From: Anastatus disparis
Taxonomy: Eukaryota; Arthropoda; Insecta; Hymenoptera; Eupelmidae
NCBI GenBank assembly: GCA_017163975.1
Contig: JAFFSR010000094.1
Location: 1 to 64,000 of the forward strand
Direction of reading: 5' to 3'
DNA: 64,000 bases
Below, one piece after another: positions 28,763 to 60,565 of this stretch. The position numbers were made by a program, and so were the translations under genes. The stretch's first letter is position 1. Each line of letters begins with the position of its first letter. The notes beneath the pieces were generated by a model that was not told the DNA's origin, did no database searches, and saw only the letters and a list, made by a program, of their open reading frames with translations.

Positions 28763-28814
28763 TACGCGAGTGATGATGATCAGAATTGTAGTTTAACACA
28801 GGAAAATAATACAA

Positions 28815-29563: not shown

Positions 29564-29566
<3 letters not shown>

Positions 29567-29600
<34 letters not shown>

Positions 29601-29780: not shown

Positions 29781-29854
29781 ATATGCGCAGTAAGGTAAAA
29801 TGTTCTTTTCAAATTTCAGTACAAAATCAACTTCGGATAGAGCAACACATAAAA

Positions 29855-30674
29855 ATGGCTCCTTGTGAATTACGCGATCCGGTAAAATCGGAATTGCCAA
29901 ACCTTTTATTATCTACTACCTATGCGCTCAATAAGTCGAACTCAAAGAGAATTTGTGTCGGTCTTAAATATAGCGGCGGATACTATCACGAAGTTATTAA
30001 ACTAGTTTCATCAGGTGGCTCGCACAAAAGTATCTCTCTTGATCGCCGTAGCTGGGATTTTCTCAAAGATCAATTTGACGCCATTACAGCTTATTTTCAT
30101 GATTCTTATTCTTTTTATCAAGATTTTGGAAGACCGACTAAATTGTTTCTAACCAATCATGATTTAAATTTCACCACATCATACGGCACCAAATCTATCA
30201 GCATTGACGAAAGACCTCACCCAAACGAGATACACGTCTCCGAGGAAGAAGAAGAGACTCCAGGACAATCGCTCTGCAAAAAGAGAAAGACTTTCAATCA
30301 TCCATCAGGTATAGTCATGCAACAGTCAACATTCGAAGGTCTTCGTCAACAAAGTGACTTGGTAGATCTTCTTCTCAACGATTTAAGCGAGCGTGTCGGT
30401 CAACCGTACTACTGATCACGTACTAGACTTTTTAAAAAATAAACTTGGACAAGAAGGACTGGACAACGCAAAAGTAATTCTTAACGACTAAAAATCATTT
30501 AAACAATACTATTCTATTCTCAATACCGAATTAGAAGGTTACGTCACAGAAAATATGGTAGATGATACGGATCATTATAAAAGCTTATATTTAAAATTTG
30601 TTTTATCTGAAATATCCGCATTTAGTTTACCGATGATTGTAAAAGATTTGAGGGATGTAATGATTCCTGTATAA
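29855..30674 (+). pseudogene. PC4-like ssDNA-binding protein, frameshifted
   Basis: From ATG 29,855, the sequence RICVGLKYSGGYYHEVIKLV followed by SISLDRRSWDFLKDQFDAI has the strand-strand-helix pattern of PC4/p15-type single-stranded DNA-binding domains, which suggests a role in replication or late transcription. An acidic patch (EEEEE) and a basic KKRK follow. The frame ends in TGA at 30,413-30,415, while another frame opens there (GAT at 30,414) with VLDFLKNKLGQ and continues, through an in-frame TAA at 30,489-30,491, to TAA at 30,672. The second part is probably the frameshifted C-terminus. The PC4 assignment is by pattern only. Confidence 0.55.
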
Positions 30675-32827: not shown

Positions 32828-34018
32828 TGTGACGTCCTACTAGCTGATGGCTAGTAAGCCGCACTTGAATCGACTCCTCAGAGTCTTATTCTTGCCGTGT
32901 TTCGGCCTTGTAATTGTAAAGCCGTTAACCAGACAAGTCGCTATGCCGTCTGGTGCGGGCTCGAGTGTGTCAGTGTATAATGTGTGTACAATAGTGTTAG
33001 TAAATGATTAGTTATGTTATAGGTAATGCCCGTTAATACTGAAGACCAAGTGCCTCAGTATGTGGGGCTTTACCTTTTAGGATGGGATCAGGTATTGTGT
33101 TGCTCGCCACAACTCTTTATTGAAATTATATTAAATCAATTATACAATGTGAAGTTAATAAGCGCACGAGCATAGAAGAATCATGTAGGTGATTCCTCTG
33201 TGCTTGGCGTGAATAGCAAAAGCGAGTTAAGTTGAGCTGAGGCGAGGCAGAAGAGAGCCTTTCTCTCTGCTGGCCCGCTTTTGTAGGCGCTGGACTCCAG
33301 TCCCCTCTTCGCTGATAGATTGGCACCGCCGGCGTTCGCGTGCGTGGTCCTGCTTTTCTCTTGCGCGCTTAGCCAATATGATGCTTAAGCGCGCTCTCGA
33401 TGTGTGATGTATATGTATGTATGTCTTTGATTGTGTGTGTTTTTCAGGAGCGTATAAACTTTTCGCGCTTATGCTTTTATTTTATAGGTTCTTTTAGATT
33501 CTACTAACTTTAATCCTTAATTAGTAAACTATATTAATAGATTATTATCTAATTACGCTATTTATCGCATGTTAGTGTATTATATTTATTTAATTTAGCA
33601 ATTAAGAAGGGGCCGAACTATCTGTCTTTGTCTAATAGCGTTTTTCATCATTTATGTAAACACTATCCGGTATAACAAGAAAAAAATAGCAGCCCCCGCT
33701 AGATATTAGTATAATAAGTAAATTTTGTAATAACAACCAAATTTTTTTACTGCGTAGTTTTTGAATAATTAGAGACCTACCAAAAAAAGATAGGTTATAT
33801 TCTAGATTGATAGTAGGTCTCTAATGAGTCAAAAACTATGCGGTAAAAAATTTGATTATTATTACAAAATTTACTAATTATACTAATATCTAGCGGGGGC
33901 TGCTATTTTTTTCTTGTTATAAAGGATAGTGTTGATATAAATAATGAAAAACGCTATTAGACAGAGACAGATAGTTCGACCACTTCTTAAGAGCCTACAA
34001 TACAACTGGGCGCTCACA
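32828..34018 (-). mobile_element. Solo LTR, probably minus orientation
   Basis: Begins TGTGACGTCC and ends GGGCGCTCACA, so both ends are TGTGA...TCACA. The flanks AGTCC and AATCC are a near-perfect 5-bp duplication inside a satellite unit. AATAAA on the minus strand near 33,120 suggests that orientation. Without the inserted MITE (33,602-33,990) the LTR is about 800 bp. No internal coding region or second LTR is present. Confidence 0.6.
33602..33990. mobile_element. TTAA-flanked MITE (copy 2)
   Basis: 389 bp. Tips are TTAAGAAGGGGCCGAACTAT and its inverse, followed by CTGTCTTTGTCTAATAGCG. Long arms carry TTTTGTAATAACAA around an AT-rich centre. It is inserted in the solo LTR. It is the same subfamily as the copy at 52,459. 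Confidence 0.85.
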
Positions 34019-36960: not shown

Positions 36961-38294
36961 TTAATATAATTCTTCAATTAATTGTCAAATAACTAATAAT
37001 TAAGTAGTTATTGATTAAACTTCAATTAACTGAGAATAATTATCATCAGGGGTCAGTTAATAGATAATTAAATTTCAATTACCAATTACATGAGAGTTTA
37101 ATTGATGATTAAGATTTTAATTATCAATTAAACGACTCGTGATTGATAACTTATTTTTTAACTGATATTTAATTGAGAATTAAATTTTTATTATTAATTA
37201 AAAACGAGTTTAATTGATAATTAATATTTTAGTAATGAATTAAAAAACCTGTAATTAATAACTAATTTTAATTATCTAAAGTTTAATTCAGAATGAAATT
37301 TTAATTATAAATCATATAGGAGTTTAATTAAAAATTAAAATTCAGTTATCAATTAAATGACCCATAATCGATAACTAACTTTAATTATTTGAATTGAATT
37401 GAGAATTAAATTTTAATTATCAATTAAATAAGAGTTTGATTGAAAATTAAGATTCAGTTATCGAATAAATGACCCATAATTGAGAAATAATTTTAATTAC
37501 CTGAAGTTTAATTGAAAATTAAATTTTAATTATCAATCATATAAAAGTTTAATCGAAAGTTAAATTTGAATCATCAATTAAATAAGAGTTTAATTAAAAA
37601 TTAAAATTCAGTTATCAATGAAATGACCCATAATTGAAGCGTATAGCTGCAAAAGTAGTTATCTCCAAAAAAATTTTATTCATAAATAACATTTTCTGCT
37701 GTACTTATACTTAAAAGTCAGTGTATTTTGCAATACACCATATTTTCTTCATTTCATAAAAAAAGACTTTACCTATATTTCGGTCCCATATGATTTTTTC
37801 ATGATAAATTTTATGTTCTGTATACGAAAATGCAATAAAAATGAATTCGGAAAAAATGGAGATAGCCACCTTTGCAGCTACACACTTCAATTGAGAACTA
37901 ATTTTAATTATCTGAAGTTTAATTGAGAATTAAATTTTAATTATCAATCGTATAAGAGTTTAATTAAAAATAAAATTTAGTTATCAATTAAATGACCCAT
38001 AATTGATAACCAATTTTAATTATCTGAAGTTTAATTAAGGATTCAATTTTAATTATTAATCATATAGGAGTTTAATTGAAAATTAAATTTTAATTATCAA
38101 TTAAATAAGAGTTTGATTGAAAATTAAAATTCAGTTATCAATTAAATGACCCATAATTGAGAACTAATTTTAATTATCTGTAGTTTAATTGAGAATTAAA
38201 TTTTAATTATCAATTAAATAAGAATTCAATTGAAATTTAAAATTTTGTTATCAATTAAATGGCCCATAATTGATAACCAATTCTAATTATGTGA
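36960..38294. repeat. AT-rich tandem array (TTTAATTATCAATTAAAT family), left part
   Basis: Variable units of about 105-160 bp built from GACCCATAATTGA, AATTTTAATTATCTGAAG, TTTAATTGAGAATTAAAT and ATAAGAGTTTAATTG. It is cut by a MITE at 37,638-37,890 and ends where the LTR-like element starts. It resumes at 51,044. Confidence 0.8.
37638..37890. mobile_element. MITE with AGCTGCAAA-containing arms
   Basis: GAAGCGTATAGCTGCAAAAG and GTAGTTATCTCC at the left are inverted at the right as GGAGATAGCCACC and TTTGCAGCTACACACTTC. It sits in the AT-rich array with AATT at both flanks. No ORF. Confidence 0.65.
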
Positions 38295-38688: not shown

Positions 38689-38771
38689 ATGAAAAATAGA
38701 TAGTTGTAAAATTATATATAAAAAATTAAATCAAAAGAAAATATTATAATAAAATAGAAATTTGTTTGTTA

Positions 38772-39090
38772 TGTAGGGGTCTACACGCTAAGCGCCTTAG
38801 TGCGCATGTCAGAAATTGTTGTAGAGGGTTTTCGGGCCTCGTTGCGAGACGCGTCAGCGTCGTTAAACAGTCGTGCTAGAGCCTCAGCACTGTTAACCAA
38901 ATAAAGATTTATAGCCGGTAGTCCCGGCGTAATATTGTAACTGTAATTAATCTTGGTTTTTCTCTTCTTCCTAGATTCCTTCCGATCCTTTACACGCGTG
39001 CTTCTATAGACGGGCACATGGTTATCTTACATAACAATTAAGTGGATAATCACACTTCCATACAATGAAGCTCTTGTACAAACGTCTATA
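38772..39090 (+). repeat. Gypsy 5' LTR
   Basis: 319 bp beginning TGTAGGGGTCTACACG and ending AAACGTCTATA. AATAAA at 38,900-38,905 is the likely polyadenylation signal. It differs from the 3' LTR at GTTAAACAG/GTTAGTCAG and CATACAATGAAG/CATATAATCAAG only. Confidence 0.95.
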
Positions 39091-39091
39091 T

Positions 39092-39103
39092 TGGTGACCC
39101 CGA
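39092..39103 (+). promoter_or_regulatory. Primer-binding site of the gypsy element
   Basis: TGGTGACCCCGA starts one base after the LTR, the position and TGG start expected for pairing with a tRNA 3' end. The tRNA identity is not determined here. Confidence 0.6.
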
Positions 39104-39772
39104 GAACTTCACGGGAGGAGGATTTTCTGCATCTTCGAGTCTGGCATATTCTGAAGGAAGAGGAGTGCTCCATCTTAAAAGAAGCGGACGAGTCCATTGC
39201 ATAACGACGGCGTCCATTTTGGCTCTTCACGATACTTGGCAGTTCCTGTTGTTGCTGCGGTTTGCTTGTCGCCTCCTTGTTACAAAGGTAAAAGGGAGAG
39301 GTTGAGACAGCAAAAAATCAATTTGCGTTGTAATTTGACGCTATACCTTCTACTCTCAAGAAAATAGTAGAGGTTTTTTGTTTCTTCTCATCAACGGTTA
39401 ATTTGACGCTGCGCCTCCTTGTTACAAGGGTAAAAGGGAGAGGTCGCACCCGGATCATTCAGCAGGATCTCGAGGCCATTGGGGCTTCTGAGTAACGTCA
39501 TCGACAACAACATCGGCAGAGTATCATCACGGTAACATCATCAGCCTGCCTGCGTGTCTTCGTTTAGCCCCGCTGCATTATTAGTAAAGGTATTTATTAA
39601 GTGCGTGCGCGTATCATTTTCGTACTAACATATAAAGCGTTTTCAGTGCGTGCGCGAAAATAAAAAAAAACAGTGTTAATTAAATTCAACATCACAAGCA
39701 AAAAAAAAAAATTCTATAAAAAGCTTGAAAGAAAGAAAAAAGCGTTTTCGGCAGCCATCTTGGCGTCGCAAC

Positions 39773-39810
<38 letters not shown>

Positions 39811-40932
39811 TATAAGTGTGCACGGGCGAACGAAGGTTCGAGAAAGAGGCGTTATGTAATAAGGTTTTTGATGACGTGTTTCCGGGACGCGCGTTCTGTA
39901 TGTAAAGATTATTCACTAACATTTGTTGAGGCGAAGAATTATTTATTTAATGCGCGGCCTAACCTTCATACAACTGGTTAATTTTTAAAAAGAAAAGAGT
40001 TTTCTGTATATATACGTCAATTTTGCATTTTCATTAAAAAAAAAAGAAAAGAAAGTTGAATACTAGTATGAAGATCGGGTAGCCATTTTGTGCTTGTAAC
40101 GTACTGCGTACATAGAAACCGACGCTTGGCCGCCATTTTGAAAATATAAAATTTTACGTAAATTAAAAATTTTTTCTTTTCTTGAATAAAATCTTTTATA
40201 GATGTAATTCTCTTTCATTTTGTGATTTCTTAAATTAAAAAAAAAAAAACAATAATAAAACAATAAAGCAAAAATTTTTTTTTTGGCGAGCGTCGAGTAT
40301 CGCAAGCAAGTGAACCGAAACGTTTTATTTATTTTAATAAAAATTTGAATGTATTTTAATAAAAAATCTTTCCATTTTAAATATTATTTTTAGTAATATA
40401 ACAAACGAAAAACTTTTCTCGTCGCTTGCTTGTAGTTACTAGTAAATTCATGTCTGGTTTGACGTAACTATTTTAAGGTAAAAAATTGATATTATCAGTT
40501 AGATTAGCTCAGTGATCGTACAGCGTCCGGGTACCGTGAATGTGTGTGCGTTGTTTTTGGAATTCTCTTAGCTGCCCAGCGGTGCGTGCGGCCGAACGAC
40601 GCGTTGGGGGCGCTCTTGCATCATACTTTTTTTCCTATGTTGATCATTGCAAACCGCCAGGACTGCGGCTGGTTTGTATTAAGACAACAGCTGCGACGAG
40701 TATCAATTTGGCGTTGCCGTGTAGATACTCCTGAGCAAAGCGCCAGTTGTCGGTTTTAGGCTTTAGAGATTGTAACGCGGTGTTAACTCGAGGGCGCCCG
40801 CGACCCTGTCCTTCGACCGCGCGTGCATCTCGGCTGCAATGTGTATAGTGTGTGTGCTGTGTGTTTTGGACAGCTATCTCTTTGTGGCAAGTGTCTTTGC
40901 CGTTGCGTTTTTGTAAGTCCAAAAGAGCGTTG
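39104..40932 (+). other. Long gypsy 5' leader
   Basis: About 1.8 kb with no supported ORF. A segment with CTCCTTGTTACAA and GGTAAAAGGGAGAGGT is duplicated (about 39,270 and 39,412). A TA microsatellite lies at 39,774-39,807. Runs of T on the minus strand and A on the plus strand are common. The length leaves room for packaging, splice donor or internal entry signals, none proven. Confidence 0.4.
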
Positions 40933-42408
40933 ATGGGCGATTCTGATAAGGAAATAACTGACCCATTCGGTGTAACGAATAGACTGGCACGTACCCCGCC
41001 ACGTGGTACGACGAGAAGTGGTAAAACCTTCCTGCCAGGTATGAATGAAAACGAGAATGAGAATGCCTCAGGGCAAGTGAGTGAGACGGATAAAGCGAAA
41101 AATAATAATAGTACAGGAACGTTACCGAAAAATAGGGTAGATAATGTAGATAATAACTAGGCGCGTAAAAACGGTACACCGCAGGTAACGGGTACAACAG
41201 AAGGAGTTATTCCAGTAAGTTTGGAAAATAATACTGCACCTAGCTTGTTAGGGGGAAATAACCCATTGAATAGTGGCAATAGTGTAGTTTATGCACCGCC
41301 AGTTAATCCAGGAAATCTTAATCTGACGGGTAATAATTTGCTTGGTGGTTTTAGTAGCGATTTAACTCCAGTCATGGAATTGCGAGAGCTGAAAAATCAA
41401 GTTGAAAGCTTGACAAGGCTAATATTGAGGCAGTCTGCAGAAAGAGCTGCCGCAGTGGTTAATACCGGAAGCACTTTACCAGGAAATTTCCCTGGTGTGC
41501 AAAATCCTACCTCTCGCAATGCTAACGAAATGCAAGCTACAAGTAACATCAATAGGCCTAAACAGCTAAAGTTTCAAAGCTTCTGGAAGCATGACTCTAC
41601 TTCATGGTTTATGCTGCTAGAAAGCCAATTTGTCAGTTCACAAATATCAACTGATGCAGACAAATTATGGAGTTTGCTATATAATTTGAAACCGGATGAG
41701 ACGTTGGTGGTGGCAACAACCATCAAGCAAGCGCCTGAAGGTACTAGATATGAAGCAGTAAAAGTTGAATTGATTAAGGAATTTGAAGAAACCCCACAGC
41801 AAAGATTGGATAAATTCGTAAACTTGCAGATGGAAGGAAACAAACCTTCAATATTTTTTAAGCAGTTGACCAACCTGGCTGGTGTACAGATTCCTCAAGA
41901 GACTGCACTTAAAATGTGGAAGGAACGGTTGCCTGCTGAGGTTGCTGTTGGCATGGGTCCTGAGCTCCCCGGGCAAACACTCGCAAGCAAATTAGAAATG
42001 GCAGATGAAGTTTACAGGTTGCAAAATAAAAGAAAAAGTAACATTGTTTCTGCGGTTCAGGTGGTCCAGGAGGAGGTCTCAAATGAATTAAATAAGCGTA
42101 TAGATGCACTGGAAAAACAAGTTGCTGCACACAAGGGAAATAGTAATGTAAATAGTAGTAAATGTAACGAGAATAACTCATTTAAAACGTCAAATAGAGG
42201 CAGCTGGCGTAGAAATAATTTTAATAGGTCAAAGCCTACCCAACAGATAGCTAAATCTCCAAACCGTAACAACAACGTCTTGTGTTACGACCATTTCACC
42301 TATCGTAATGCTGCAGTAAGATGTACACAGCCATGTAGTTTGCGAAACCGTACCATTCAACGGTTACCCAATCGAAACTCAAATAGTAGTAATGAAAAAA
42401 ATGGGTAA
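40933..42408 (+). pseudogene. gag: Gypsy gag polyprotein, one in-frame TAG
   Basis: ATG 40,933 (MGDSDKEITDPFGVTNRL) opens a frame stopped by TAG at 41,158-41,160 and then open to TAA at 42,406-42,408, about 490 codons. The capsid-like region has KFQSFWKHDSTSWFMLLESQ, ALKMWKERLPAEVAVGM and a helical C-terminal half, as in arthropod gypsy Gags. Near the end, CYDHFTYRNAAVRCTQPC is a variant zinc-binding knuckle preceded by an Asn/Arg/Ser-rich basic stretch. Gag forms the virus-like particle and binds RNA. Pol is in the -1 frame. Confidence 0.85.
42396..42402 (+). promoter_or_regulatory. Candidate -1 frameshift heptamer, gag-pol
   Basis: A-AAA-AAT in the gag frame, four bases before the gag TAA. 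The pol frame is open from just after a TGA at 42,393, so a -1 slip here gives gag-pol. It resembles the A-AAA-AAC class of retroviral slippery sites. I have not folded the downstream RNA. Confidence 0.5.
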
Positions 42409-45400
42409 GTCCTGTTTGCGAGGAGGCGGCAAACTTGGACAAAACAACTGTACGTCTCCACGTTTGGGATTATGATTCCTGCACTCTGTTTCTTGTCGAT
42501 ACAGGTGCAGAAATTTCCTTGCTGCCCAGAGGCGATAGGAATTTGGAGTTATCTGAATTGAAGTTGTACGCAGCAAACAACACAATTATTAATACATATG
42601 GTGTGGTGAGAAAAACACTAAATTTCGGCCTTAGAAGGCCTATTAGTTGGAATTTTGTGATTGCTGACGTACCATACGCTATTTTGGGAGGTGATGTACT
42701 TAAATACCACCATTTAATACCTGACCTTAAAAATAAACAGCTGATAGATGGTGAGACACTAATGACTGTTGCAGCGATTCAAAAGACTGTTGAAAAAGAA
42801 ATTAAAATTTTGTTGATAGAGCCGTCACATAAATTTGCTAGTGTGCTTGCTAAATTTCCCAAGGTTATTGGAATAGAAAGTCCAGTTTTCTCCAATGAGC
42901 AGGGAATAGCTCATTATATTAAAACAACAGGTCCACCTATAGCGCAACGTGCTAGAAGATTGTCTCCTGAGAAACTGGCAGCAGCTAAGAAAGAGTTTGC
43001 TGAATTATGCGTGCAGGGCATTTGTAGACCCTCGTCTAGCCCATGGGCAAGTCCCATACATTTAGTGCCAAAAAAAGACAGTTCTTGGAGAGTATGTGGA
43101 GATTACAGACAGCTTAATGCAGTCACCAGGCCTGATAGATATCCAGTGCCTCATCTTCACGACTTCCCAGTATTTCTAAGCAACAAGAAAGTGTTTTCAT
43201 CTCTAGATATGAGAAAGGCTTATCATCAGATTCCTGTGACTCCTGAGGACATAGAAAAGACGGCTGTTATAACACTATTCGGCCTATTCGAGTATACAGT
43301 CATGACATTCGGATTGCGTAACGCAGCTCAGTCTTTCCAGAGGTTCGTAAATAGAGCCCTGGGAGATTTAGAATTTGTGTTTGTTTATATAGACGATATC
43401 CTCATCGCCTCAGAGAATATGCAGGAACATGAACAGCACTTAGAAATAGTCCTTAACAGATTAAATCAGTGCAACTTGCATCTTAACATCGAAAAATGCT
43501 TATTTGGCGTAAGCGAACTTATATTTTTAGGACACAGCATCTCGTCCAATGGACTTAAACCTTCAGCTGATAAGGTTAAAGCCATCGCTGAGTTCCCTAA
43601 ACCAAACACCATCCAGCAGTTGCGTAGGTTTTTGGGAATGCTCAATTTCTATAGAAGATGCGTCCCTAAAGCGGCAGAGACTCAAATAGTCCTTAACGAC
43701 TACCTGAAAGATTAAAAAAAGAATGATAAGAGGGTAATTAAATGGACTTTACAGGCCGAGCAGGCTTTTCAGAAAGCAAAAGATGAGCTCTGCAGTGCTT
43801 CGTACTTAGCTTTTCCTAAAGAGGATGCTGAGTTAAGAATTGTTTCGGATGCATCGAATGTAGCAATGGGAGCAGCGTTGGAGCAGAAATGTGATGATTC
43901 TTGGCAACCAATAGCTTTCTTTTCTAGGAAGTTTTCGCCAACACAAAAAAGATACTCTGTCCATGATAGAGAATTGACGGCTATCTATGAAGCTCTACGT
44001 TACTTTTACCATTATGTGGAAGCACGTAGCTTCAAGATACTTACTGATCACAAGTCTCTGATCTATGCCTTGACGCATAACGATGAGAAGGCAAGTGCAA
44101 GAAAAATCCGTCAATTGTCATATATTTCAGAATTTAATACTGAAATATGTTATATCAAGGGCGATGAGAATAGAGTCGCTGATTCGTTGTCGCGAATCGA
44201 ATCAGTCAGCTCTGCTATAGCTATTGACTGGACTGATCCAGAATTGCGGAATCATCCACAGTTTATGAATGTTATCAATAAAATTGATACATTTAGTCTT
44301 CTAACACTATTTGAATATAAATTACTCAGCGATGAGCAGCAAAAAGATGAACAGTTAGCTGAAATTTTACAGAATCCTGAGCACCCATTGAAGTTGCAGA
44401 AGCTAGCATGGGGATCAGACAGGTTGCCTATTTATTGTGACTTGTATGGTCACGTAATTAGACCTTATTTACCTAAGACCTTAAGAAAGGCTGCATTTGA
44501 CTCGGCTCATTCTCTCGCGCATCCTGGCGCAAAAGCAACTGATCGAATTATAAGAATGACGTATATATGGCCGAAAGTTAGCAGGGACGTAGCAAGGTGG
44601 TGTAAAGCCTGCTTACCCTGCCAGAGAGCCAAGGTAACTCGGTATAATAGAATGTTGCCTGAGCATTTTGTGGCTCCAGATAGTCGATTCGACCATGTAC
44701 ATATAGATCTAGTGGGGCCACTTCCACGAAGTGATGGTTATTCATATCTATTAACTATGATAGACAGATACACAAGGTGGCCGGAAGCCATTCCCTTGTA
44801 TGATATATCAGCTGCTACCGTAGCACGAGCCTTCTACGATAATTGGATAGCCCGCTACGGTGCACCGGTGACTATTACCACTGATCAAGGGAGACAATTT
44901 GAGTCTCAGCTGTTCGCAGCCTTGTTACAGTTAATTGGATGTAAACGTATCCATACATCAGCGTACCATCCTCAATCGAACGGAATGATAGAGCGCTGGC
45001 ATAGGACACTTAAAGCTGCTCTTAAAACTCACGCAGAGAACAACAGAGACTGGGCTTTCTCCTTATCTACTGTGCTTTTGGGCCTGCGTACAAGTGTTCG
45101 TTTAGATACGAATGCTAGCCCAGCTGATTTTCTGTTTGGTTCTGGTCTTCGAGTTCCTGGCGAATTCTGCGCTTTTCAAGACACCGAACCCGACAGAGCT
45201 TACTTTTTGGAGGAGTTCAGAAATTATATGCGTGAAGTAAGACCTGTGCCGGTTAAACACAAACACGCTATCAAGCCGTTTATGTACAAAGACATCTCTC
45301 ACTGCACGCACGTGATGTACAGAACCAAGGCAATAAAACCGGCTTTGGAAAGACCATACACTGGTCCTCACAAGGTAATTGAGCGCCACGCTAACGGTAG

Positions 45401-45887
45401 AAACTTCACAATAGAAGTTAATGGCACTCATAAAATAGTCAATATAGAGCTGATTAAACCAGCCTATTTTATTCGTGAGGAACCAGAGGAAGGAATTACT
45501 GTTGAGCAGTCACAGTTGGCGGTGGAAACACCGGAAGCCGAGATTCCTGTCCGGGACGTAGATAGTGCTCACGACGAGTACAACGTCACAAGTGACAACG
45601 GTAATTGTAATGATAACGATAATGATCTGATCTATCCTCAGTTGACTCACCATGAGCCCAAAGACGAAAGTAATGGTCAGCTTGTGCCTGGAGATTCAGT
45701 TCCCGACGTCTCGATGGATGCTGAGTGGCAGGAGGCACCCAGAAAAAGGAAATTTGTGCCAAATATATTAAAGAGATCACGACGAGTGCAAACTGACGAA
45801 ACAGAGCAAGCGTCTGTGAATACTCAATTGTCTCAAAGTGCCAAGAAAGTCACGTTTCAAGCTGAAGTTTATGACATACCTCAATAG
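42396..45887 (+). pseudogene. pol: Gypsy pol polyprotein (PR-RT-RNase H-IN), one in-frame TAA
   Basis: Aspartic protease LVDTGAEISLLP (~42,500). Reverse transcriptase with WRVCGDYRQLNAVTRPDRYP, SSLDMRKAYHQIPV, MTFGLRNAAQSFQRF and catalytic FVYIDDILIAS (~43,380). RNase H with IVSDASNVAMGAAL, RELTAIYEAL and LTDHKSLIYAL. Integrase with an HHCC zinc finger (HSLAHPG ... CKACLPCQRAKV), DDE core in HVHIDLVGPL, ITTDQGRQFES and NGMIERWHRTLK, and a C-terminal PYTGPHKVIER (GPY/F-like). A TAA at 43,713-43,715 lies between RT and RNase H, and the frame is otherwise open. A ~150-residue acidic tail after the integrase is unusual in length. It ends in TAG. Confidence 0.93.
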
Positions 45888-46276
45888 AGGCAACTAAGTT
45901 TTAGCATACGGTATACTTGCAACTGCAAGCCCAAGGACACCGCACTTGAGAACGAAAGCTATAAAAAACGGTACCTGTATAAAGAGAAATTTAGACTGAT
46001 TCTTATGGAAGAAGTTTTGTTTTGTATACGTAATTAAATGTAAAAAAAATAATAAAAAAACAGCTGTAAATATATGAAAGTATAACCGACAATTTCGTCA
46101 GTAAGACGAGCGTAGGTTAACTAAATAGAGATCTCATTTTAACACCGTAATGTAAACACGTGATATAGTTAGTAGCGTAGAAAATAAGAATAATAGTTAT
46201 AGTAATTGCAGTAAATTTATCCGCTATTATCAGCATCTCTTACTCTGTTCTTGAAGGTAACCTGGCCAGTTGCACG

Positions 46277-48037
46277 ATGGAGCAGTTGGATGAGGTGTTT
46301 AAATAACTCGAGCAGATGAAAACTGCCAGTGACGATGCATACTTCCGCTCCAAATGCTTTAATGCTGAAATACATCTACAGGCTTACAAGCAGGAGATCT
46401 CACTGCTCTTCGATCACCATCATAGGCATCTTACCCGAAGTCAAGGACGCACAGTTATGCGAGAATTTAACCCAAACATCTTGCGTCATCCTGTGTTGGT
46501 TGTAAATGGTAAACCTGTGTTGAAGCTCTTCCTGTTTAATTTGTTCGACCAGGTTACTTGTGAAGACATTGATAAATTTCTAAAAGCATCTGGATGTAAG
46601 GATTTCACCGTAACTAGGATTTTTAAAGGAAAAGACCGTACGTCGGCGATAGTGCAGGCTGACCACATCAAGGCTTCGTGTTTGCTTCAGTGTAAATCCT
46701 GCCTAAAACAGCTCATTTGGAAGTATAAAGACGGATCTGAGAAGTATGTAAGGGTAAAACCTGATTTTAAGTGTAAACAGATCGTCGCGGGCAAGCAACC
46801 AAGCCTTCGGTGTTTGTCACCTGAGCTCGCCCAAGTTTTAGCATGTGGAGACGCGGTCAGCATTATTTGCTCGAACCTAGGTCCCGGTGATTTCTTTAAT
46901 TTTTATAAAGCGACGGGTTTCCACCCAGTTTTTCACAAGTTGAGCGTACATTTTGACGCGTCGATCAACAGGTATAGAGGAGCTCAAGGAGTAGAACTTA
47001 TGTATAAAGATGCTAAAACTTTTAAATTTTCTAGTGTAAGTTTTCCGTTAAATTCACGCGAAGCTTATATGGTTAATGTAAATATGTTATTTGAAAGACA
47101 ATTCGTGAATGTAAATAAATCTAGGGATAGATGTAAGGTAAAGTTGATAGATTTGACAGGCGTCGAAGCATCGAATCGAATTTTTGTTAAGTTATCCGAG
47201 CACTTCGACGTGCAAGAACTGCGTGTTGGGACTACCCGGGCGCTGTTCGATAGGGAGTTTAGGTTGTTAGGGTTAAGCAATTTATGTTTTGTTAATTGCG
47301 TTAATGCGCGTTTAAAATTTTTGTATGAACCAAACTTTAAAAGCCTGACGACTTTATCTTTAATCAATTGTAAAAAACTTCTTATAGAGGCATTATTTGA
47401 TTTTGTAAAAGAGAATCAGTCGCTTAAAGAGCTTCAGTTAATTAATTGTAGTAATATAGACATTGATAGAGTGGATTTCACTATCATTGAAGCAGTTTTT
47501 TCTGGTAAAAACGTACTGGAATCATTTCAGTACTCATTTGATCATAGAGTAGACTCACAAGTCGAATGGCTGTATCAGCCTTCATTAAAGCTGAACAAAA
47601 CAATTAAGCGCCTGAATCTCTCTAATAATGGTAAACTTGAGCATTTAGTGCGCTTTATGCTTCCATGCATTCCAAATGTGACAAGATTGAACGTGTTAGG
47701 TTTGAAGTTTCAAGAGCCATTAAATTTGTCACGACTCTCGCAACTTCAAGAGTGTTCAGTTGATTATAGCTTACAAGCGAATGAAACTTTAAACTCTATT
47801 AGCAGTGTCAAAATTAACAATATTCAAGTAGTTAATCGTTTAGGTAAAAAGAAAACTAAGGCTTTATCGCTTAATTTTTTAGTAAACACGATTGAATGGT
47901 CAAGTCAATTGCGAGTCGTTTTAGACAATTGCTATGTTCCTGGTAGTAGTTACATTTGGAGTGTACTAAAAAGAAAAAACGTAAACATAAAAAGTTTGGA
48001 AAAAAGCTTAATTATAGATTTTAAAAAGTTATCATAA
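46277..48037 (+). pseudogene. Third ORF in envelope position: LRR-like protein, not an envelope
   Basis: The frame opens at ATG 46,277, is stopped by TAA at 46,304-46,306 after nine codons, and is then open from ATG 46,316 for 573 codons, which may simply be the used start. Residues ~1-35 look coiled. LKLFLFNLF (~69-77) and KDRTSAIVQ (~106-114), about 35 residues apart, recall RNP2 and RNP1 strands of an RRM. From ~320 to ~490 leucine-rich strands recur: LTTLSLINCKKLL, LKELQLINCSNID, IKRLNLSNNGKLEHL and VTRLNVLG, of the cysteine-containing LRR type. There is no signal peptide, furin site, fusion peptide or membrane anchor, so a gypsy envelope is unlikely. A pyrimidine-rich TTACTCTGTTCTTGAAG just upstream could be a splice acceptor for a subgenomic mRNA. 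Origin and function are unknown; capture of a cellular gene is inferred. Confidence 0.7.
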
Positions 48038-48267
48038 TTTTGTAAACCAGACATGAAATATGCGTTTTTAATGTAATATGTTTTGTAAAAGCGATATGTT
48101 GATTTGTAAAGGGCATCACGGCTGACAAAATAATTAAACAGAGAAATGTAATAAAAACAAAAAAGAAAAGAAATGTAATTGCAGAGAAGTATATACATGT
48201 ATATATTTCACCGCCAAGTCTTTAATGAATTAATCATTTGCAATTAATATTTTTTTTTTCTTTTTTT

Positions 48268-48285
48268 CCTTTTGAGGAGGAGTAG
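48268..48285 (+). promoter_or_regulatory. Polypurine tract of the gypsy element
   Basis: TTTTGAGGAGGAGTAG directly precedes the 3' LTR. It is the position where plus-strand DNA synthesis is primed. A T-rich stretch lies just upstream, as often seen. Confidence 0.6.
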
Positions 48286-48604
48286 TGTAGGGGTCTACAC
48301 GCTAAGCGCCTTAGTGCGCATGTCAGAAATTGTTGTAGAGGGTTTTCGGGCCTCGTTGCGAGACGCGTCAGCGTCGTTAGTCAGTCGTGCTAGAGCCTCA
48401 GCACTGTTAACCAAATAAAGATTTATAGCCGGTAGTCCCGGCGTAATATTGTAACTGTAATTAATCTTGGTTTTTCTCTTCTTCCTAGATTCCTTCCGAT
48501 CCTTTACACGCGTGCTTCTATAGACGGGCACATGGTTATCTTACATAACAATTAAGTGGATAATCACACTTCCATATAATCAAGCTCTTGTACAAACGTC
48601 TATA
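48286..48604 (+). repeat. Gypsy 3' LTR
   Basis: 319 bp, same length as the 5' LTR, with about four substitutions. It is followed by the target duplication GTTA. Confidence 0.95.
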
Positions 48605-48608
48605 GTTA

Positions 48609-50245: not shown

Positions 50246-50642
50246 TTAAGAGGCGGCCGTATAGTTCTGTCCTTGTCTAATCTAAATTTTCTTTATAATT
50301 GCTAAACTAAATATTTTTATACAAAAGTAAGGGCAGAGCCCAATAGATTTAGGGATGAACATGCGATTCTATTCTATGAAAAAATATAAAATTTTCATTA
50401 GTTTTCGAGTTAAGTCTGAAACGGAAAAAGAGTTGAACACTTCAATCAAATTTAACTCTTTTTCCGTTTCAGACTTCACTCGAAAACTAATGAAAATTTT
50501 ATATTTTTTCATAGAATAGAATCGTCTGCTCATCCTTAAATCTGTTGGGCTCTGCCCTTACTTTTGTATAAAAATATTTAATTTAGTTAGAATAACGAAA
50601 ATTTAGATTAGACAAGGACAGAACTATACGGCCTCCTCTTAA
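50246..50642. mobile_element. TTAA-flanked MITE (copy 3)
   Basis: 397 bp. TTAAGAGGCGGCCGTATAGT and its inverse end in TTAA, followed by TCTGTCCTTGTCTAATCTAA. The long palindromic body carries GTTGAACACTTCAA at the centre. It is inserted in the LTR-like element. Confidence 0.85.
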
Positions 50643-51043
50643 TGAGTTTCTGTCTCGGTGTTCTAATTGATAACGGTAAAATTTTTCAGGCAGTTTCAAT
50701 ATACACGAAAATACGTGTGAATTTCTACATAATATTTTTCAGGTACCCAAGATTAGAGTATCCCTTAACGATTGTTTACACAGCTGAAGTATTTTACTTT
50801 ATTTTATTTAAAAGGTACAATAATTACTTGTCTCAAAAGAAAATGAGTTCACACCGAAACATATACAGATCGGACAAAATAATAATGGAAAAATAATGAT
50901 TTAAAAATAATTAACAGAAAAATAAAGTGTTGGTCTTATAGCAAAATACATTGAAAGTATTTTAAAAAAAGAAATTTTTGTGAAAAGATTTTAATATGAA
51001 TTTTTTTGTTTAAAAGAAGTCGGCAAAATTGCCCGACGTTACA

Positions 51044-51170
51044 CTGAAGTTTAATTGAGGATTAATTTTTAATTATCCATCATATAAGAGTTTAATTGAA
51101 AATTAAATTCTAATTATCAATTAAATAAGAGTTTAATTTCTTGTTAAATTTAAAAATTAAATAATGATTT
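51044..51170. repeat. AT-rich tandem array, right remnant
   Basis: CTGAAGTTTAATTGAGGATT and ATAAGAGTTTAATTGAAAATT continue the array cut at 38,294, in the same orientation. This supports a single LTR-like insertion between them. Confidence 0.8.
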
Positions 51171-52458
51171 TTTTTCTTCGATTAACAAAAAAAAATATTT
51201 ACCAAAAAACGACTAGTAGTCAAAGATGTTTGTTTTTCAAGTTGAATAGTTGAAAATATACTTTCAGAATCTTTTCTAGCACCATCATTATATGTACTGC
51301 TTTTTGGATATGAAATAATTATCTCCTTTTTCAAATTGTTCAATTCCTGAAAGTAAAAACAGTAAACAGCATACAGTTGATAAAAATTAGAAAATTATAA
51401 GTAAACAATATATGTAGAATAAAAATAAAATGTATATAATATACATAGTAAAATATATTTAAAAGTAAAATGGATACGGGAGCACTTGAAGAATAAGAAT
51501 TACCATCCTCGATCATCAAATTGCTATCTCTTTTCTCTTCCTGTTTTTTTGTTCCTTTAGGAACCATATCAGCAGTATCTATTTTGTCAATAATTAAGTT
51601 ATTCTTATTATATTGAGAATTAATAATCCCTAGTTTCTTCATTATTTTATCTATGTTTATATTGGATAATGCCTCCTTGTGTTGGTCTGTATAAATATTA
51701 ACTATCTTCTGATTTTAGTGCGGAATTTCAGAAAAGTAGTGTCCGTTTTACATCACCTTAAACATTTGATATAAATTTCAAATCTTCTTTCTATTTTTTC
51801 TTTCATATATCTTCAACAACTGCAGAAGAAAGAATTCAGATAAACAATACATAATCATGTCAGATAATCAGCATGGTAAGTATAAGTATTTTTGATGAAT
51901 TTGAAAATATAAATAGTCGTAATTTGAAAAATGGTACTAATTGAATTTCAAGTAAAATTTATCTCAAATTCTTTACAACATGAAAAGTGCTAATAGTAAG
52001 ATTTTTTCTAATATAAAAATGAGTATTCATTAATAAATTTACCTTTTGACTTATGCTGAACACTAATACTATTTTTAACTTTTAATCGTCTTTCTTATCC
52101 TTACATGGGCTGAGTGAGGTTGGAAATAAAACGTAAAAAAAATATTAAACTAGTAAATTAAATTAAATTTATGACATTATTTTCGTTCAAGGAAAATTTT
52201 AAGGAGAGGAGAATGTCAAGGAGAAAATTTCAAATTTAAATTAAATTGAATGCTACTGATTTTTAAACTAATAGAAATAAAACGTTCTGAATTTTTTACA
52301 TTAAATTAATTAATTAAATCTATTAATTAAGTAAATAATTGTTATTAATATAAGTTTATCAAAATTAACTATAACATATTAAAAGTATTTAAAGTCCAAA
52401 AAAAGAACTGAATTGAAAATTTTCTAATCAATATATACATAATATATAAATTTGTATA
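51171..52458. other. Unassigned DNA with weak exon-like stretches
   Basis: A minus-strand 100-codon frame at 51,340-51,642 (MKKLGIINSQYNKN, KKQEEKRDSNLMIED) might be an exon, since TTACTTTCAG on the minus strand near 51,355 resembles an acceptor. I cannot place it in a family. A lone MITE end is at 51,737-51,768. ATG TCA GAT AAT CAG CAT followed by GTAAGTATAA at 51,855-51,882 resembles a first exon with donor but has no partner I can identify. Confidence 0.3.
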
Positions 52459-52836
52459 TTAAGAGGAGGCCGAACTATCTGTCTTTGTCTAATAGAGTTT
52501 TTCATTATTTATGTAAAAACTATCCGTTGTAGCAAGAAAAAAGTAGTAGCCCGCGCTAGATATTAGTATAATAAGTAAATTTTGTAATAACAAGAAAATG
52601 ATTTTATCTCGTAGTTTTTGAATAATATGAGACCTACTAACAAACTAGAATATAATCAATCTTTTTTGGTAGGTCTCATATTATTCAAAAACAACGCGAT
52701 GAAATAATTTGATTGTTATTACAAAATTTACTTATTATACTAATATCTAGCGGGAGTTACTACTTTTTTCTCGCTACAACGGATGGTGTTTATATAAATG
52801 ATGAAAAACGCTATTAGACAAAGACAGATAGTTCGG
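52459..52836. mobile_element. TTAA MITE (copy 4), right tip missing
   Basis: Starts TTAAGAGGAGGCCGAACTAT. The body is very similar to the copy at 33,602. It ends AGACAGATAGTTCGG without the last CCTCCTCTTAA, a few bases before the CACTGAG element. Confidence 0.8.
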
Positions 52837-52849
52837 AATAATTTTACTA

Positions 52850-53674
52850 CACTGAGAAAAATGTCTGGATAAAGTTTACTGCAAAAATATGTAAAATTAC
52901 TTTATATTATAGTAACGTTGTGACGTACTCGTTTTATGAGAAATATTACTTCATTTCGACGAATAATTCTTATGTATGTAATATTTTTTACTAGAAAACA
53001 CATGAAAAAGTAGTATTGATATTCAACAAAAATTGCTACATAATATAGTAAAAATTGTAGAAATAATTTTTACTGCATACGTTAGTAAATTTTGTCGATT
53101 AACCTATTAATTTTATCTATGAAAATACCAAAATTTACTGCCCTGATAGTAAATAATAATGTAAAATCGAAAAGCATAAAGTCCTTGGAACATATATAGT
53201 AAAAAGTTTTATTTTATGTAGTATATTCGATTCGTCTGATTTTTAATTCGAAAACTTAACCTCAAAATTTTTAACTAAATTCAAAGTATCCTTTATAACA
53301 TATGAAGACGATTCGAAGTATATTGCGTAACATGTTAGCATGGCGCAGTCGGTAACGTTCACGCTTCTCGTCCTCGTGATCGGCGGTTCGATCCCAACAA
53401 AGGTGAGATTTTTTTTCTGAGTTTTCTTTCAAATATTATTTAAATTAATTTAATAAATAAAAAAAATAATTTAAAAATTAAAAAAAATTGTTACGCATGT
53501 AATTAAAAATAATTCGAGATAAAAAATTAAACGACTAATATTATCTGCTCAATCAAATTTTACTATATAAAATAGTAATTTTTCTTACAAAGCGAGTATG
53601 TCACAGCATTACTATATTAAATAGTAATTTTATATATGTTTGTAGTAAATTTTATGCAGACATTTCTCTCAGTG
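52850..53674. mobile_element. 825-bp TIR element (CACTGAG ends) with tRNA-like core
   Basis: CACTGAGAAAAATGTCTG at the left and its inverse ending CTCAGTG at the right begin inverted repeats about 105 bp long (also sharing AAAATTACT, TAGTAA and GTGACGTACTCG). No transposase is encoded. No clear target duplication is visible (left flank TTTTACTA, right GATCTAAA). CACTG tips recall CACTA-like families, but this is not decisive. Confidence 0.75.
53331..53402 (+). tRNA. tRNA-like sequence, probably non-functional
   Basis: TGGCGCAGTCGGTAAC matches an A box with D-arm, and GGTTCGATCCC, about 35 bp further on, matches a B box. TCACG and CGTGA can pair in the anticodon-arm position but enclose an 11-nt loop. 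The T-stem and acceptor stem pair poorly. It looks like a decayed tRNA or tRNA-derived SINE promoter in the middle of the CACTGAG element. Confidence 0.35.
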
Positions 53675-56290: not shown

Positions 56291-56375
56291 TACTTTTAAA
56301 TATACAACTGGCACCAAATTTAAAATTAAAATTTAAGATTCGTTTAGTTAAGCTATTTCTATCTTGGAGGTCACT

Positions 56376-57610
56376 ATGTCCAATCAGTGTGATCTCTGTT
56401 TTAAAAACTTTAGTGCTGCATCCAAGCCTCAGCTTTGTGGTCGCTGTGGTAAGACCTATCACAGCTCTTGTATCAAATTGCTCTTAGTCAGAGATAATAA
56501 TGACCAACAAGTAAAGGTATGTATTTTTTGCATAGCAGCTGCAAATCCTGATTGCAGTCGATCACGTTCTAGTTCTGTGGGTTCTATGAGTGATGTCTCA
56601 GCTTCTCTGTCTCTGTCGCGTACTCCAACTCCGACACTACCAGCGCTACAAACAAATGAACTTTTGTCTTCTATATTGAAGAAGATGGAGAAATTAGATA
56701 AGCTGGATGATATGGATACCAAGATCAACAATATCGACACTCAACTATTGACACTGGATGGGAGATTTACAAGTTTGGAGACGCAAGTGGATGGTATTGC
56801 TGTGGGATGTGAGGAACTTTGTGGAGCAACTGAGGCAAGGCTTGACAAGGTTTGTCAGGATTATTGGGAGCTTAAGGCGAAGCTAGAGAAATCTCTCTCT
56901 GTTGTGCATGATCGGGCATTATCTGACCCTATGGCTGCTAAACTACAGGAATTAGACAAGATCAATAAATCCTTACGGCAACAGTGTGATGTTTTGGCGG
57001 CTGGCCAGCAGCGTCTTGAGCGTGCATCAGACTTGGTGTTTGGAGGCCTGGTTCCTAATGAATTTAACGATCTGAAGAACGGTGTCTTTGCTGTATTGGC
57101 TTCTCTTAATTCTGGTTTTGCTCTCAGTGACATTGTTTCGGTTCGACCTTCGTCGCGACCTGCTACAGCTCGTAATACTGATGATAGTACTGCTCCTTCT
57201 GCAACAACATCTCAAGGTGGTCCTCCGCTGCTTACGACGCCATTGCTCGTCACTATGAAGAGTGCCTCGTTGGCGCGATCTGTCATCGGAGCAAAGATCA
57301 GGATGGGTAGCCTTCATACCTCAAAGATCAGGAGTGACCTTTTGCAGGGAACTTTATCAGTTGAAACACTTACTCCTTCCTTGATCAACATCAATGAATA
57401 TCTGCCACACTTATTGCACCAACTGAAGTTGAGAGTGCTCAGGAAGGCCAAAGATAAGAGGTAAAACTTCCTCACATTTGTGCGTGATGGTAAGATCTTC
57501 GTCAGAAGGAAGAAGGAGGATGCAGCCATTCGTGTTGCATCGGATGACGACTTGGATGCTTTTTTAGCAAAGCTCTTATTGATATCAACCAACGACGATG
57601 TAGCCACTTA
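56376..57610 (+). pseudogene. LINE ORF1 with PHD-like zinc finger, one in-frame TAA
   Basis: From ATG 56,376 (MSNQCDLCFKNF) a C4HC3 finger spans about residues 5-50: CDLC, CGRC, YHSSC and CIFC. A Ser-rich linker follows, then heptad-like helices (about 100-215, LDDMDTKINNIDTQLLTLDG) that could trimerise, and a basic C-terminal part. TAA at 57,462-57,464 is followed by about 48 open codons (FVRDGKIFVRRKKEDAA), so it is a premature stop. ORF1 proteins bind element RNA. Confidence 0.8.
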
Positions 57611-57688
57611 ACATCCGACACTGGGGTAAGCTCATTCTCTCTTTCTTCTCACTCTAACACACTTCTTCCTTCTAACAATACTATTTCA

Positions 57689-60565
57689 TTGGTCATTCAT
57701 GATCATTTCACTACTAAGGATGGTCTCAGAGTTTGTCATTTTAATGCCAACTCTATTAGAGCGCACATTGAGATGATTAGACTCTTTTTGGCTTCTCGCC
57801 CTTATTTCCACGTAATAGCTGTTACTGAGACCAAACTGAGCCAGATAGTTTGTGATTCTTTGATTGCTCTTGATGGGTATGTGCTTTATAGACAGGATCG
57901 TAACACCAGGGGAGGTGGTGTTGCTTTATTTGTACACTGCTCTCTCACTTCTGTGCGTCTCTGTTCATCCTCTGGAAGCTGGAGTGGTAAGCCTGGTTTA
58001 CCTGAGTATCTCTTCTGTGAGGTCAACTCATCTGACTTGGCTTCACCCATTTTCGTTGGTGTTGTTTATAGACCATCTCACGCTCCATTTTTGGCCAACA
58101 CAGACTTTATTCCTGATTTGACCACTCATATGCACAATTATAGTACTAAGGTAGTTTTAGGAGATTTCAACACTAATTTGTGTTCTGAATCTGATGATTC
58201 TGTGTTCCTGAAGAGCCTTATTAAGGAAAATGCACTTTTTTCAGTGCCTTATGGACCTACGCATCATACTTATTCCTCTGATACGTGGCTCGACTTGTGC
58301 CTTGTCGATGCCAATGACTTACTGCTTGACTATTGGAAGACTGAAGTACCATTTATTGACGGACATGATTTTATTGCTGCGACTGTGAAGTCGTCTCTCT
58401 CTAGGCCTACACTTAATAATTTTACTTATCATGATTATAAAGCGGTTGATGAGGCTGCTCTTCTTGATTATTTTCGATCGCTGAATTGTGCTGTGTGTAA
58501 CGGTGACTCTTCTCTTTTGGCTCGCCTTGAATGTCTTTACACTCATCCTAATGAAGCTATCTCACGGTTTGTGCCTGTTAGGCGTGTTCGACAGAGCAAG
58601 AGTCATCGTCCGTGGTTTACCTCTGAGCATCACCGCTTAATCTCTGAGAGAGATAGGCATTACAGACGCTTCAAACGTACTAGGCTGCGTGATGATCTTA
58701 TATGTTATAGAGATGCTCGAGATCGGGCCCATTCATGCATCGAATCAGCTAAATTACTGTATTACCACGACAGACTATCTAAGATTACTGACGCAAGACA
58801 GATCTGGAAAGAACTCAAGAACCTGGGCGTATGTTCCAGCAGTAGTGACTCTCGAAATTCTTTTTCAATTAATGATTTGAATCAGTATTTTGGTGGTGTT
58901 GCGTTTGATTCTCTGGTCCCCTCCATTTCTGATTACATGAATACACTTGCTCTAGATGAACCACTTAAACCCATGTTTAAGTTTAATCCAGTTACTTTGG
59001 AGGAGGTATGGATGGCTGTTTGTCATTCAACTTCACAGGCCAGAGGGTTTGATGCTGTTCCTCAATCTTTTGTCCGTGCGGCATTTCCGGTCATTGAGCC
59101 TTTGTTATGTCGCATTTATAACGACTCATTGCGTGAATCCTTATTTCCTTCATGCTGGAAGATCTCACTGGTCACTACAATAAACAAAATCTGCTCTCCT
59201 CAAGCTTTTGGTGACATTAGGCCAATTTCTTTATTATCTTGTATGTCCAAGGTTCTTGAACGTCTAGTCCATGATCAACTCTACAATTACCTGACTATAC
59301 GACAGCTACTGGACCCTTATCAGACTGGATTTCGAACTGGACATAGTACTCAGACTGCACTACTGAAACTAACTGAGGACATTAGACGCAATATGGACAG
59401 ACACTATGTGACGTTGCTGTTGCTATTTGATTTCAGCAAGGCATTTGATACGGTATGCCATGTCTCTCTGCTCAGAAAAATGTCTTCTCTTGACATCTCG
59501 CATTCAGTTGTGCGGTGGTTTGCGTCTTATCTCTCTGAGAGACAGCAGGCTGTTATTGATGCAGATGGTAATGCATCTGACTATGTAACATTAAATACTG
59601 GTGTTCCCCAGGGCTCTGTCCTTGGTCCACTGTTGTTTTCTATATACATCAATGATGTGGCTGCTGACTTCCATGCCGATGTGCAGCATCTTATCTATGC
59701 TGATGATCTTCAGGTGTACATTCACTTCCCAATTGCTAAGTTGGCTTCTGTTACTGCTCTCATGAGTGATCAAGCTGTCAGTATTCTTAACTGGGCGACA
59801 AAAAATCATCTGAAATTAAATGTGAGCAAAACAAAGGCTATTATTATTGGATCTTATTTCTATGTCAATATGCTGCCCTCATTACACATCACTGGTGTTC
59901 CAATAAACGGTGATCTTATTAAGTTTGAATCTTCTGTTCGTAGTCTTGGTGTATGGCTTGATAGTAAGTTGAACTGGAAGGACCAAATTGCGCATGTGTG
60001 TAACAGGAGTCACTCATTGCTCTATAGATTAAATTTCTTTCGAAAAAGTACCACTATTGCACTACATAAGCATCTTATCCGTTCTTTGCTGTTTCCTTTA
60101 CTTGATTACTGTTGTTTGGTCTATATTGACCTTTCTGCTGAACTCAATCTGAGGCTTCAAAGGGTTGTAAACTCTGGTATTCGTTACATCTATGGTGTAA
60201 GTAGGCGCGAGCACATCTCTGTTTATAGGTCCTCTCTAGGCTGGTTATCCACTTTGGGTAGAAGAAACTACTTCGCTACTACCTTCTTATACAAAATGTA
60301 TTTGTCATGCTCACCTTCATATCTTTATTCTAGATATTTGTGGAGCCGGCCTGTGAGGACACTGAGGGGTGATGTGAGACCGTTAACCATTTCTTTTTCA
60401 TCTACCGAGTATCACCAAAGATCGTTCCTGGTTGTGTCATCGCAACTATGGAACGGTCTACCATCATCATTAAGAGATTCTTCATCGTTGGCATTATTCA
60501 AGGCATCAACATATTCACACTACCTTTCCCTTGAGAATGAGCCTCTGCTCCGAGCTAGGCTTTAA
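57689..60565 (+). CDS. LINE ORF2: APE endonuclease and reverse transcriptase
   Basis: About 958 aa, uninterrupted. The endonuclease part shows VCHFNANSIRAHI, VIAVTETKL, GGGVALFVHCSL, VVLGDFNTNL, DTWLDLCLVD and the terminal FIDGHDFIAATV (catalytic His). The RT part shows DIRPISLLSCMSKVLERLV, YQTGFRTGHSTQTALLKL, LLLFDFSKAFD, GVPQGSVLGPLLFSIYINDV and the catalytic LIYADDLQVYI, then a C-terminal region. No RNase H domain is apparent. It performs target-primed reverse transcription. The first codon of this stretch is TTG, and the frame is open further upstream and overlaps the end of ORF1, so the start mechanism is unclear (reinitiation or frameshift). Confidence 0.93.
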   Translation: MVIHDHFTTKDGLRVCHFNANSIRAHIEMIRLFLASRPYFHVIAVTETKLSQIVCDSLIALDGYVLYRQDRNTRGGGVALFVHCSLTSVRLCSSSGSWSGKPGLPEYLFCEVNSSDLASPIFVGVVYRPSHAPFLANTDFIPDLTTHMHNYSTKVVLGDFNTNLCSESDDSVFLKSLIKENALFSVPYGPTHHTYSSDTWLDLCLVDANDLLLDYWKTEVPFIDGHDFIAATVKSSLSRPTLNNFTYHDYKAVDEAALLDYFRSLNCAVCNGDSSLLARLECLYTHPNEAISRFVPVRRVRQSKSHRPWFTSEHHRLISERDRHYRRFKRTRLRDDLICYRDARDRAHSCIESAKLLYYHDRLSKITDARQIWKELKNLGVCSSSSDSRNSFSINDLNQYFGGVAFDSLVPSISDYMNTLALDEPLKPMFKFNPVTLEEVWMAVCHSTSQARGFDAVPQSFVRAAFPVIEPLLCRIYNDSLRESLFPSCWKISLVTTINKICSPQAFGDIRPISLLSCMSKVLERLVHDQLYNYLTIRQLLDPYQTGFRTGHSTQTALLKLTEDIRRNMDRHYVTLLLLFDFSKAFDTVCHVSLLRKMSSLDISHSVVRWFASYLSERQQAVIDADGNASDYVTLNTGVPQGSVLGPLLFSIYINDVAADFHADVQHLIYADDLQVYIHFPIAKLASVTALMSDQAVSILNWATKNHLKLNVSKTKAIIIGSYFYVNMLPSLHITGVPINGDLIKFESSVRSLGVWLDSKLNWKDQIAHVCNRSHSLLYRLNFFRKSTTIALHKHLIRSLLFPLLDYCCLVYIDLSAELNLRLQRVVNSGIRYIYGVSRREHISVYRSSLGWLSTLGRRNYFATTFLYKMYLSCSPSYLYSRYLWSRPVRTLRGDVRPLTISFSSTEYHQRSFLVVSSQLWNGLPSSLRDSSSLALFKASTYSHYLSLENEPLLRARL

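Follow-up and report, generated by a model that had tools for sequence, protein, structure and literature searches.

The 64-kb window analysed here (the whole stretch from position 1 to 64,000 of contig JAFFSR010000094.1 of Anastatus disparis) contains a Ty3/Gypsy retrotransposon spanning positions 38772-48604. Between pol and the 3' long terminal repeat (LTR) this element carries a third open reading frame (ORF3). It belongs to a set of related genes under purifying selection, and appears to encode a non-envelope protein with leucine-rich repeats (LRR), preceded in the predicted model by RRM-like and F-box-like segments.

Structure of the element

The element is flanked by a 4-bp target-site duplication, GTTA (left copy at 38768-38771, right copy at 48605-48608). 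All features of the element given below lie on the + strand. Its two 319-bp LTRs, the 5' one at 38772-39090 and the 3' one at 48286-48604, are identical at 315 of 319 positions. A primer-binding site, TGGTGACCCCGA (39092-39103), begins one base past the 5' LTR; presumably it is of the tRNA-Trp type, given the 3' end of this tRNA as we know it. A polypurine tract is located at 48274-48285. gag (40933-42408; DUF7041, E 1.4e-12) codes for a C-terminal CX2HX9CX3C motif, read in the window copy only as CYDHFTYRNAAVRCTQPC. The passage from gag to pol would take place at a candidate -1 frameshift site, A AAA AAT (42396-42402), which is proposed from the reading frames and the heptamer rule for such sites. 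pol (42396-45887) encodes a protease-like motif, reverse transcriptase (RT; RVT_1, E 2.4e-30), RNase H (E 3.7e-31), integrase (core domain, E 9.1e-15) and a long tail.

The first-pass annotation, made from the sequence alone, had described a young, structurally complete gypsy element. The LTR identity and the 4-bp duplication agree with this description, but the window copy is broken by in-frame stops in gag (TAG, 41158-41160), in pol (TAA, 43713-43715) and ten codons into ORF3 (46304-46306).

According to the available text of PMC2582038, the CsRn1 clade is characterised by the Gag motif CX2HX9CX3C, a tRNA-Trp primer and a 4-bp target duplication. The window element has all three in common with CsRn1, PwRn1 and AgCR and, judged by them, appears to be a member of a CsRn1-type Ty3/Gypsy lineage. 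Unlike the ORF3-bearing window element, PwRn1 and the AgCRs have no ENV-like protein reported, and no RRM/F-box/LRR-like protein is mentioned for the clade, in that same text (PMC2582038).

ORF3 is 573 codons long (plus the stop) when counted from its first ATG at 46316 to 48037, and 576 codons from stop to stop (46307-48037). When the region between pol and the LTR was resampled 2,000 times under a first-order Markov model, the longest chance frame averaged 90 codons and never exceeded 180, so ORF3 is well beyond chance, and the long frame pointed out in the first-pass annotation is real. The start given there, 46277, is an in-frame and apparently ancestral ATG. However, the TAA at the end of 46277-46306 prevents 46277-48037 from being a single frame; other fetched copies of the window family are open at this place, with frames of 618 codons. 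A pyrimidine-rich tract ending in AG (46237-46256, found by eye) is a candidate 3' splice site for the ORF3 mRNA. Each of the six families described below has a similar tract ahead of its ORF3 start (17 rows, judged by eye, unscored and with no control), the weakest being that of locus L042. The leader contains candidate splice donors. This candidate acceptor suggests that ORF3 is made from an env-like spliced mRNA.

Predicted fold of the ORF3 product

The AlphaFold model of ORF3 has a pLDDT of 81.5 (the single-sequence run, at 36.7, was uninformative). It consists of a long N-terminal helix (residues 8-42, 46337-46441), an RRM-like domain (residues 57-150, 46484-46765), an F-box-like segment of three helices (residues 169-207, with the helices at 169-199; 46820-46936, seen in the model only) and a leucine-rich repeat domain (residues 208-573, 46937-48034). 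By sequence, the LRR is the only one of these domains to reach significance, while the RRM-like and F-box-like parts are read from the model. The LRR profile matches solved LRR proteins with a best E of 1e-4, which together with the model bears out the LRR-like strands recognised in the first-pass annotation. With the whole ORF3 of 13 members as queries, Pfam matches were LRR_R13L1-DRL21 in four (best E 0.00087), LRR_NXF1-5 in three (best E 0.05) and Zn_ribbon_15 in four (E 0.16). Within the LRR domain there is a conserved basic motif, KKKTK (residues 511-515, 47846-47860).

The RRM-like domain has the strand-helix-strand-strand-helix-strand order (beta-alpha-beta-beta-alpha-beta) of an RRM, as far as the model goes. 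Foldseek aligned it with the RRMs of UPF3B and Mip6 (E 0.02-0.1, target TM 0.42-0.61). Pfam found RRM_occluded in two of the 13 members (best E 0.023, a weak match), and we give no weight to the Pfam matches of this segment since unrelated families scored better: DUF7632 in two members (0.0034) and bpX4 in one (0.0024). An RRM usually has two consensus strands, RNP2 and RNP1, the latter with characteristic aromatic residues. The LFLFNL(F) strand that had been likened to RNP2 is present, conserved and located inside the RRM-like fold. In most families the RNP1-like strand proposed to pair with it is without these aromatic residues.

The solved structures closest to the ORF3 model are F-box/LRR ubiquitin-ligase receptors (FBXL2, FBXL17, and SKP2), and residue 169 is where the structural alignments with FBXL2 and with the F-box chain 6wcq_B start. 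In these proteins, as in the ORF3 model, a helical segment is followed by an LRR arc. ORF3 differs from them in having an additional helix and an RRM-like module, in being carried by a retrotransposon and in that its F-box is not significant by sequence. Profiles of the RRM-like and F-box-like segments matched no RRM and no F-box chain among solved structures.

The position between pol and the 3' LTR and the splice-acceptor-like site are both env-like and would suit a diverged envelope glycoprotein, especially as Boudicca and Saci-3 of the CsRn1 clade are described as having an ENV-like third ORF (available text of PMC2582038). However, a membrane-spanning hydrophobic segment is absent from all 27 ORF3 sequences (maximal 19-residue hydropathy 1.03-1.50; no dedicated signal-peptide program was run), as the first-pass annotation had noted for the window ORF, and an LRR fold is predicted instead. 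That ORF3 is a diverged envelope is therefore hardly credible, and on the hydropathy values we rejected an errantivirus or other envelope-bearing Gypsy identity.

Copies and families in the host genome

The interest of the window ORF depended on whether further element copies carry it, and many do. In the host genome (939 Mb, 399 contigs) at least 78 ORF3 matches were found. Of these, 35 are 84-100% identical, 42 are 28-35% identical and a single one, at 60%, lies in between. This count is a lower bound, 76 of 942 candidates having been scored. About 50 of the 78 listed matches have no stop (counted by eye), and members of two further families used as queries returned at least 79 and at least 78 matches.

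Six ORF3 families, designated A (that of the window) to F, are present among the fetched copies. In an alignment of 27 rows the other 26 are 23-99% identical to the window ORF3. The 49 fetched loci are a non-random sample, many of them picked for open frames; one (L001) is the window's own and two (L029 and L040) duplicate the places of L022 and L023. In 45 of the 49 the ORF3 frame has at least 576 codons. An RNase H-integrase match is located near ORF3 in 45 of the 48 loci other than the window's own, and among these 48 no pol match was found near ORF3 at L009 and L041.

Two loci have an unusual structure. L012 (C339:72300-79700) matches gag and RT and keeps ORF3 intact, with no integrase match found; ORF3 matches on contigs C313, C369 and C362 score like L012 and may be its kin. 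In L028 of family A (C44:253200-260700) pol and ORF3 are fused: together they read open for 1,477 codons, and the match to the RNase H-integrase part of pol breaks off at its residue 420, just ahead of ORF3.

Selection on ORF3

The ratio of nonsynonymous to synonymous substitution rates (dN/dS, Nei-Gojobori) was calculated for 23 pairs of copies, eight of which were saturated in dS. Each of the 15 usable pairs belongs to one family (A, B, D, E or F), family C having a single member. All 15 gave a dN/dS of 0.10-0.25; the value for the family E pair depends on four changes only, and the use of stop-free copies only biases the estimates toward constraint. When ORF3 was divided into its domains in five pairs, 19 of 20 comparisons gave 0.05-0.24 and one was not computable. 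In the five pairs in which both genes were compared dN/dS was 0.05-0.17 for pol and 0.12-0.19 for ORF3, which is the looser of the two in four pairs. Evolution across copies, which the first-pass annotation had singled out as a check, is thus non-neutral: ORF3 is under purifying selection within families.

A recent subfamily without ORF3

Family F includes at least 25 pol copies at 99-100% identity (the copy on C342 is in two pieces, the second at 97%). Thirteen of the 25 have both ORF3 ends downstream and an LTR 2.28-2.59 kb past pol; ORF3 is full-length and stop-free in ten of them and disrupted in three. The remaining 12 have neither ORF3 end, and the matched pol contains no stop in any of them. 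In nine of these 12 the LTR is located 0.90-0.92 kb past pol, and for three no LTR was found among the matches listed. Absence of ORF3 was judged from the best 40 or so matches per listing, which is strong evidence for near-identical copies though not absolute. LTR pairs of family F also come in two sizes, 9.14-9.17 kb (five pairs) and 7.72-7.78 kb (four pairs). Two of the four short pairs enclose a listed ORF3-less pol, and the LTRs of one long pair are 100% identical over 301 bases as listed.

A recent family F subfamily without ORF3 has therefore multiplied, which means that ORF3 is dispensable in cis. Such spread fits a trans-acting factor, whether host-directed or serving export or transmission.

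These copies bear on two other explanations. ORF3 could be a structural or assembly partner of Gag, acting in the particle, in genome packaging or in intracellular transport and having no host target. ORF3 is conserved beside gag and pol, and L012 retains gag, RT and ORF3, as could be expected of such a partner. However, all 12 short-form copies have an open pol and no ORF3, and we find this role improbable. ORF3 could also be a captured host gene which is now kept by the host, an explanation that purifying selection alone would favour. The number of copies, the adjoining pol at 45 of 48 loci and the family F LTR pairs, one of them listed as 100% identical, speak for a gene of the element instead; we consider domestication very improbable and rejected it.

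Relatives and origin

The pol tree was built from 43 rows, nine of them ORF3-bearing and 34 hand-picked from 120 listed database proteins. The nine ORF3-bearing rows join eight database rows, three of which are named Trichogramma, in one set of 17 rows with 100% support in the Shimodaira-Hasegawa-like approximate likelihood ratio test (SH-aLRT); no named CsRn1-clade element was present in the tree when this grouping was made. The ORF3-bearing label needs two changes on this tree. In the ORF3 tree, which came with a long-branch warning, families A, D, E and F each form a single group and B encloses the lone C row. One origin of ORF3 followed by vertical descent is the simplest reading of these trees, not a proven one.

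A protein database search returned nothing at E <= 0.01 for the window ORF3 or the 13 aligned members (7,998 candidates scored for each), which is weak evidence of absence given the word filter and the uncertain eukaryote content of the database. Viral contigs contained no relative when searched with ORF3, with the RNase H-integrase part of pol or with alignment A2. Host NXF-type LRR exons gave eight matches, and among the matches listed these do not overlap the ORF3 places in either direction; no single-copy, LTR-free orthologue of ORF3 stood out among the matches listed. Among the papers listed from the part of the literature covered, none was on a retrotransposon F-box/LRR or RRM/LRR protein.

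Other features of the window

AT-rich satellite arrays with units of 41, 71 and 112 nt flank the element on either side (37057-38290 and 51003-51192). Long hairpins, whose arms measure about 190 nt and are 87-93% complementary, are located at 50246-50642, 52454-52852 and 33602-33990, the last two being related to one another. A Maverick/Polinton-like element (16937-30415) has long frames resembling DNA polymerase B, ATPase, integrase, capsid proteins and protease, and a non-LTR retrotransposon with two long frames occupies 56352-60565 (both recognised by eye).

Possible function of ORF3

We tentatively favour the view that ORF3 is an SCF-receptor-like, host-directed accessory protein, although on the predicted fold our confidence in it remains low. 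It may help the element to overcome host defences or to move element RNA. In this scheme the envelope slot of a CsRn1-type element would encode a soluble accessory protein translated from a spliced RNA. Its long helix, perhaps used for dimerisation, and RRM-like module would be followed by the F-box-like helices, which would bind host SKP1 and make the protein a substrate receptor of SCF. A host factor restraining the element would be bound by the LRR, alone or together with the RRM-like module, and would be ubiquitinated or kept away. As such a protein would act in trans, copies without ORF3 could still spread. We favour an SCF receptor because FBXL2 ranks high over residues 169-562 and because a role in trans fits the ORF3-less subfamily.

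Several observations weigh against it. Some non-F-box LRR proteins likewise align from residues 160-172, which lowers our confidence. Pfam F-box_4 was found in just one of the 13 members (E 0.028), and an F-box was found in none of five segments checked. The spread of ORF3-less copies also fits an ORF3 of little use for copying the element itself.

Chief among the rivals is a role in exporting or handling the element's RNA in the manner of CERV or NXF1, in which the RRM-like and LRR domains would bind unspliced RNA and carry it from the nucleus; we consider it somewhat less likely than the SCF-receptor reading. The available text of PMC10309623 describes CERV of the Cer1 element of Caenorhabditis elegans as a non-envelope protein in the env slot, made from a spliced RNA, having a helical leucine-zipper domain and being needed to export unspliced RNA. 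Its folds, compared by description only, are different from those of ORF3: they include an M domain and a G-protein-like G domain (PMC10309623). NXF1/TAP has an RRM-like domain followed by an LRR, as does ORF3; Foldseek finds it at E 0.008, and the LRR profile reaches it with a best E of 0.19. The conserved KKxK motif is basic, as would suit a nuclear signal, and the net charge of ORF3 is positive in all 27 sequences (+1 to +29). On the other hand, ORF3 differs from NXF1 in its F-box-like insert between RRM and LRR, which RNA export leaves unexplained, and in its longer LRR, which reaches the C-terminus in the model. No NTF2-like or UBA Pfam family was found at E <= 1 in any of the 13 members. 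The lack of aromatic residues in the RNP1-like strand of most families also argues against RNA export, and the spread of ORF3-less copies would require the exporter to be supplied in trans. The first-pass annotation had suggested a cellular gene captured by a lineage without env, perhaps for RNA export or host-protein targeting, and had pointed to NXF1 as a protein combining RRM and LRR. This interpretation is partly supported: the non-envelope nature and the LRR hold up and an RRM-like fold is predicted by the model, while the NTF2-like and UBA parts of NXF1 were not found.

Returning to the SCF-receptor-like reading, we speculate, as a long shot, that the lineage carries an SCF receptor whose target is Piwi or one of its partners in the host small-RNA defence, and that the RRM-like module guides this receptor to element RNA. 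In the host genome 25 Piwi-domain exons that are nearly complete (279 bits or more, counted by eye; three with stops) are arranged in tandem on C263, C216, C325 and C135. Piwi expansion and LTR bursts are described for Anastatus in the available text of PMC9613689. Together these make the small-RNA pathway a sensible first target, no more. If such a receptor does exist, the tandem Piwi expansion would be what an arms race predicts. Separately, a short C-terminal Piwi fragment (profile positions of about 223-297) recurs in similar form at dozens of dispersed loci, stop-ridden and often with one TAG and three TAA, as if a repeat had captured part of a Piwi gene.

To our knowledge, the function of non-envelope accessory genes of animal LTR retrotransposons is known for few, CERV among them. 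Proteins of this kind are not new as such. In bdelloid LTR retrotransposons non-envelope proteins were likewise gained in the ORF3 slot, but those described in the available text of PMC5408684 are GDSL esterases and DEDDy exonucleases, unlike the RRM/F-box/LRR-like ORF3. What appears to be new beside the bdelloid ORF3s and CERV is an ORF3 of the latter type, none having been found in the literature searched. An F-box-like motif in an accessory protein is known, by description, from the silencing suppressors of plant viruses, polerovirus P0 and crinivirus p22. The contrast between an RRM/F-box/LRR-like ORF3 in six families and a young subfamily without it would allow a direct test of counter-defence genes in animal retrotransposons, and of whether these elements, like some plant viruses, hijack the ubiquitin system.
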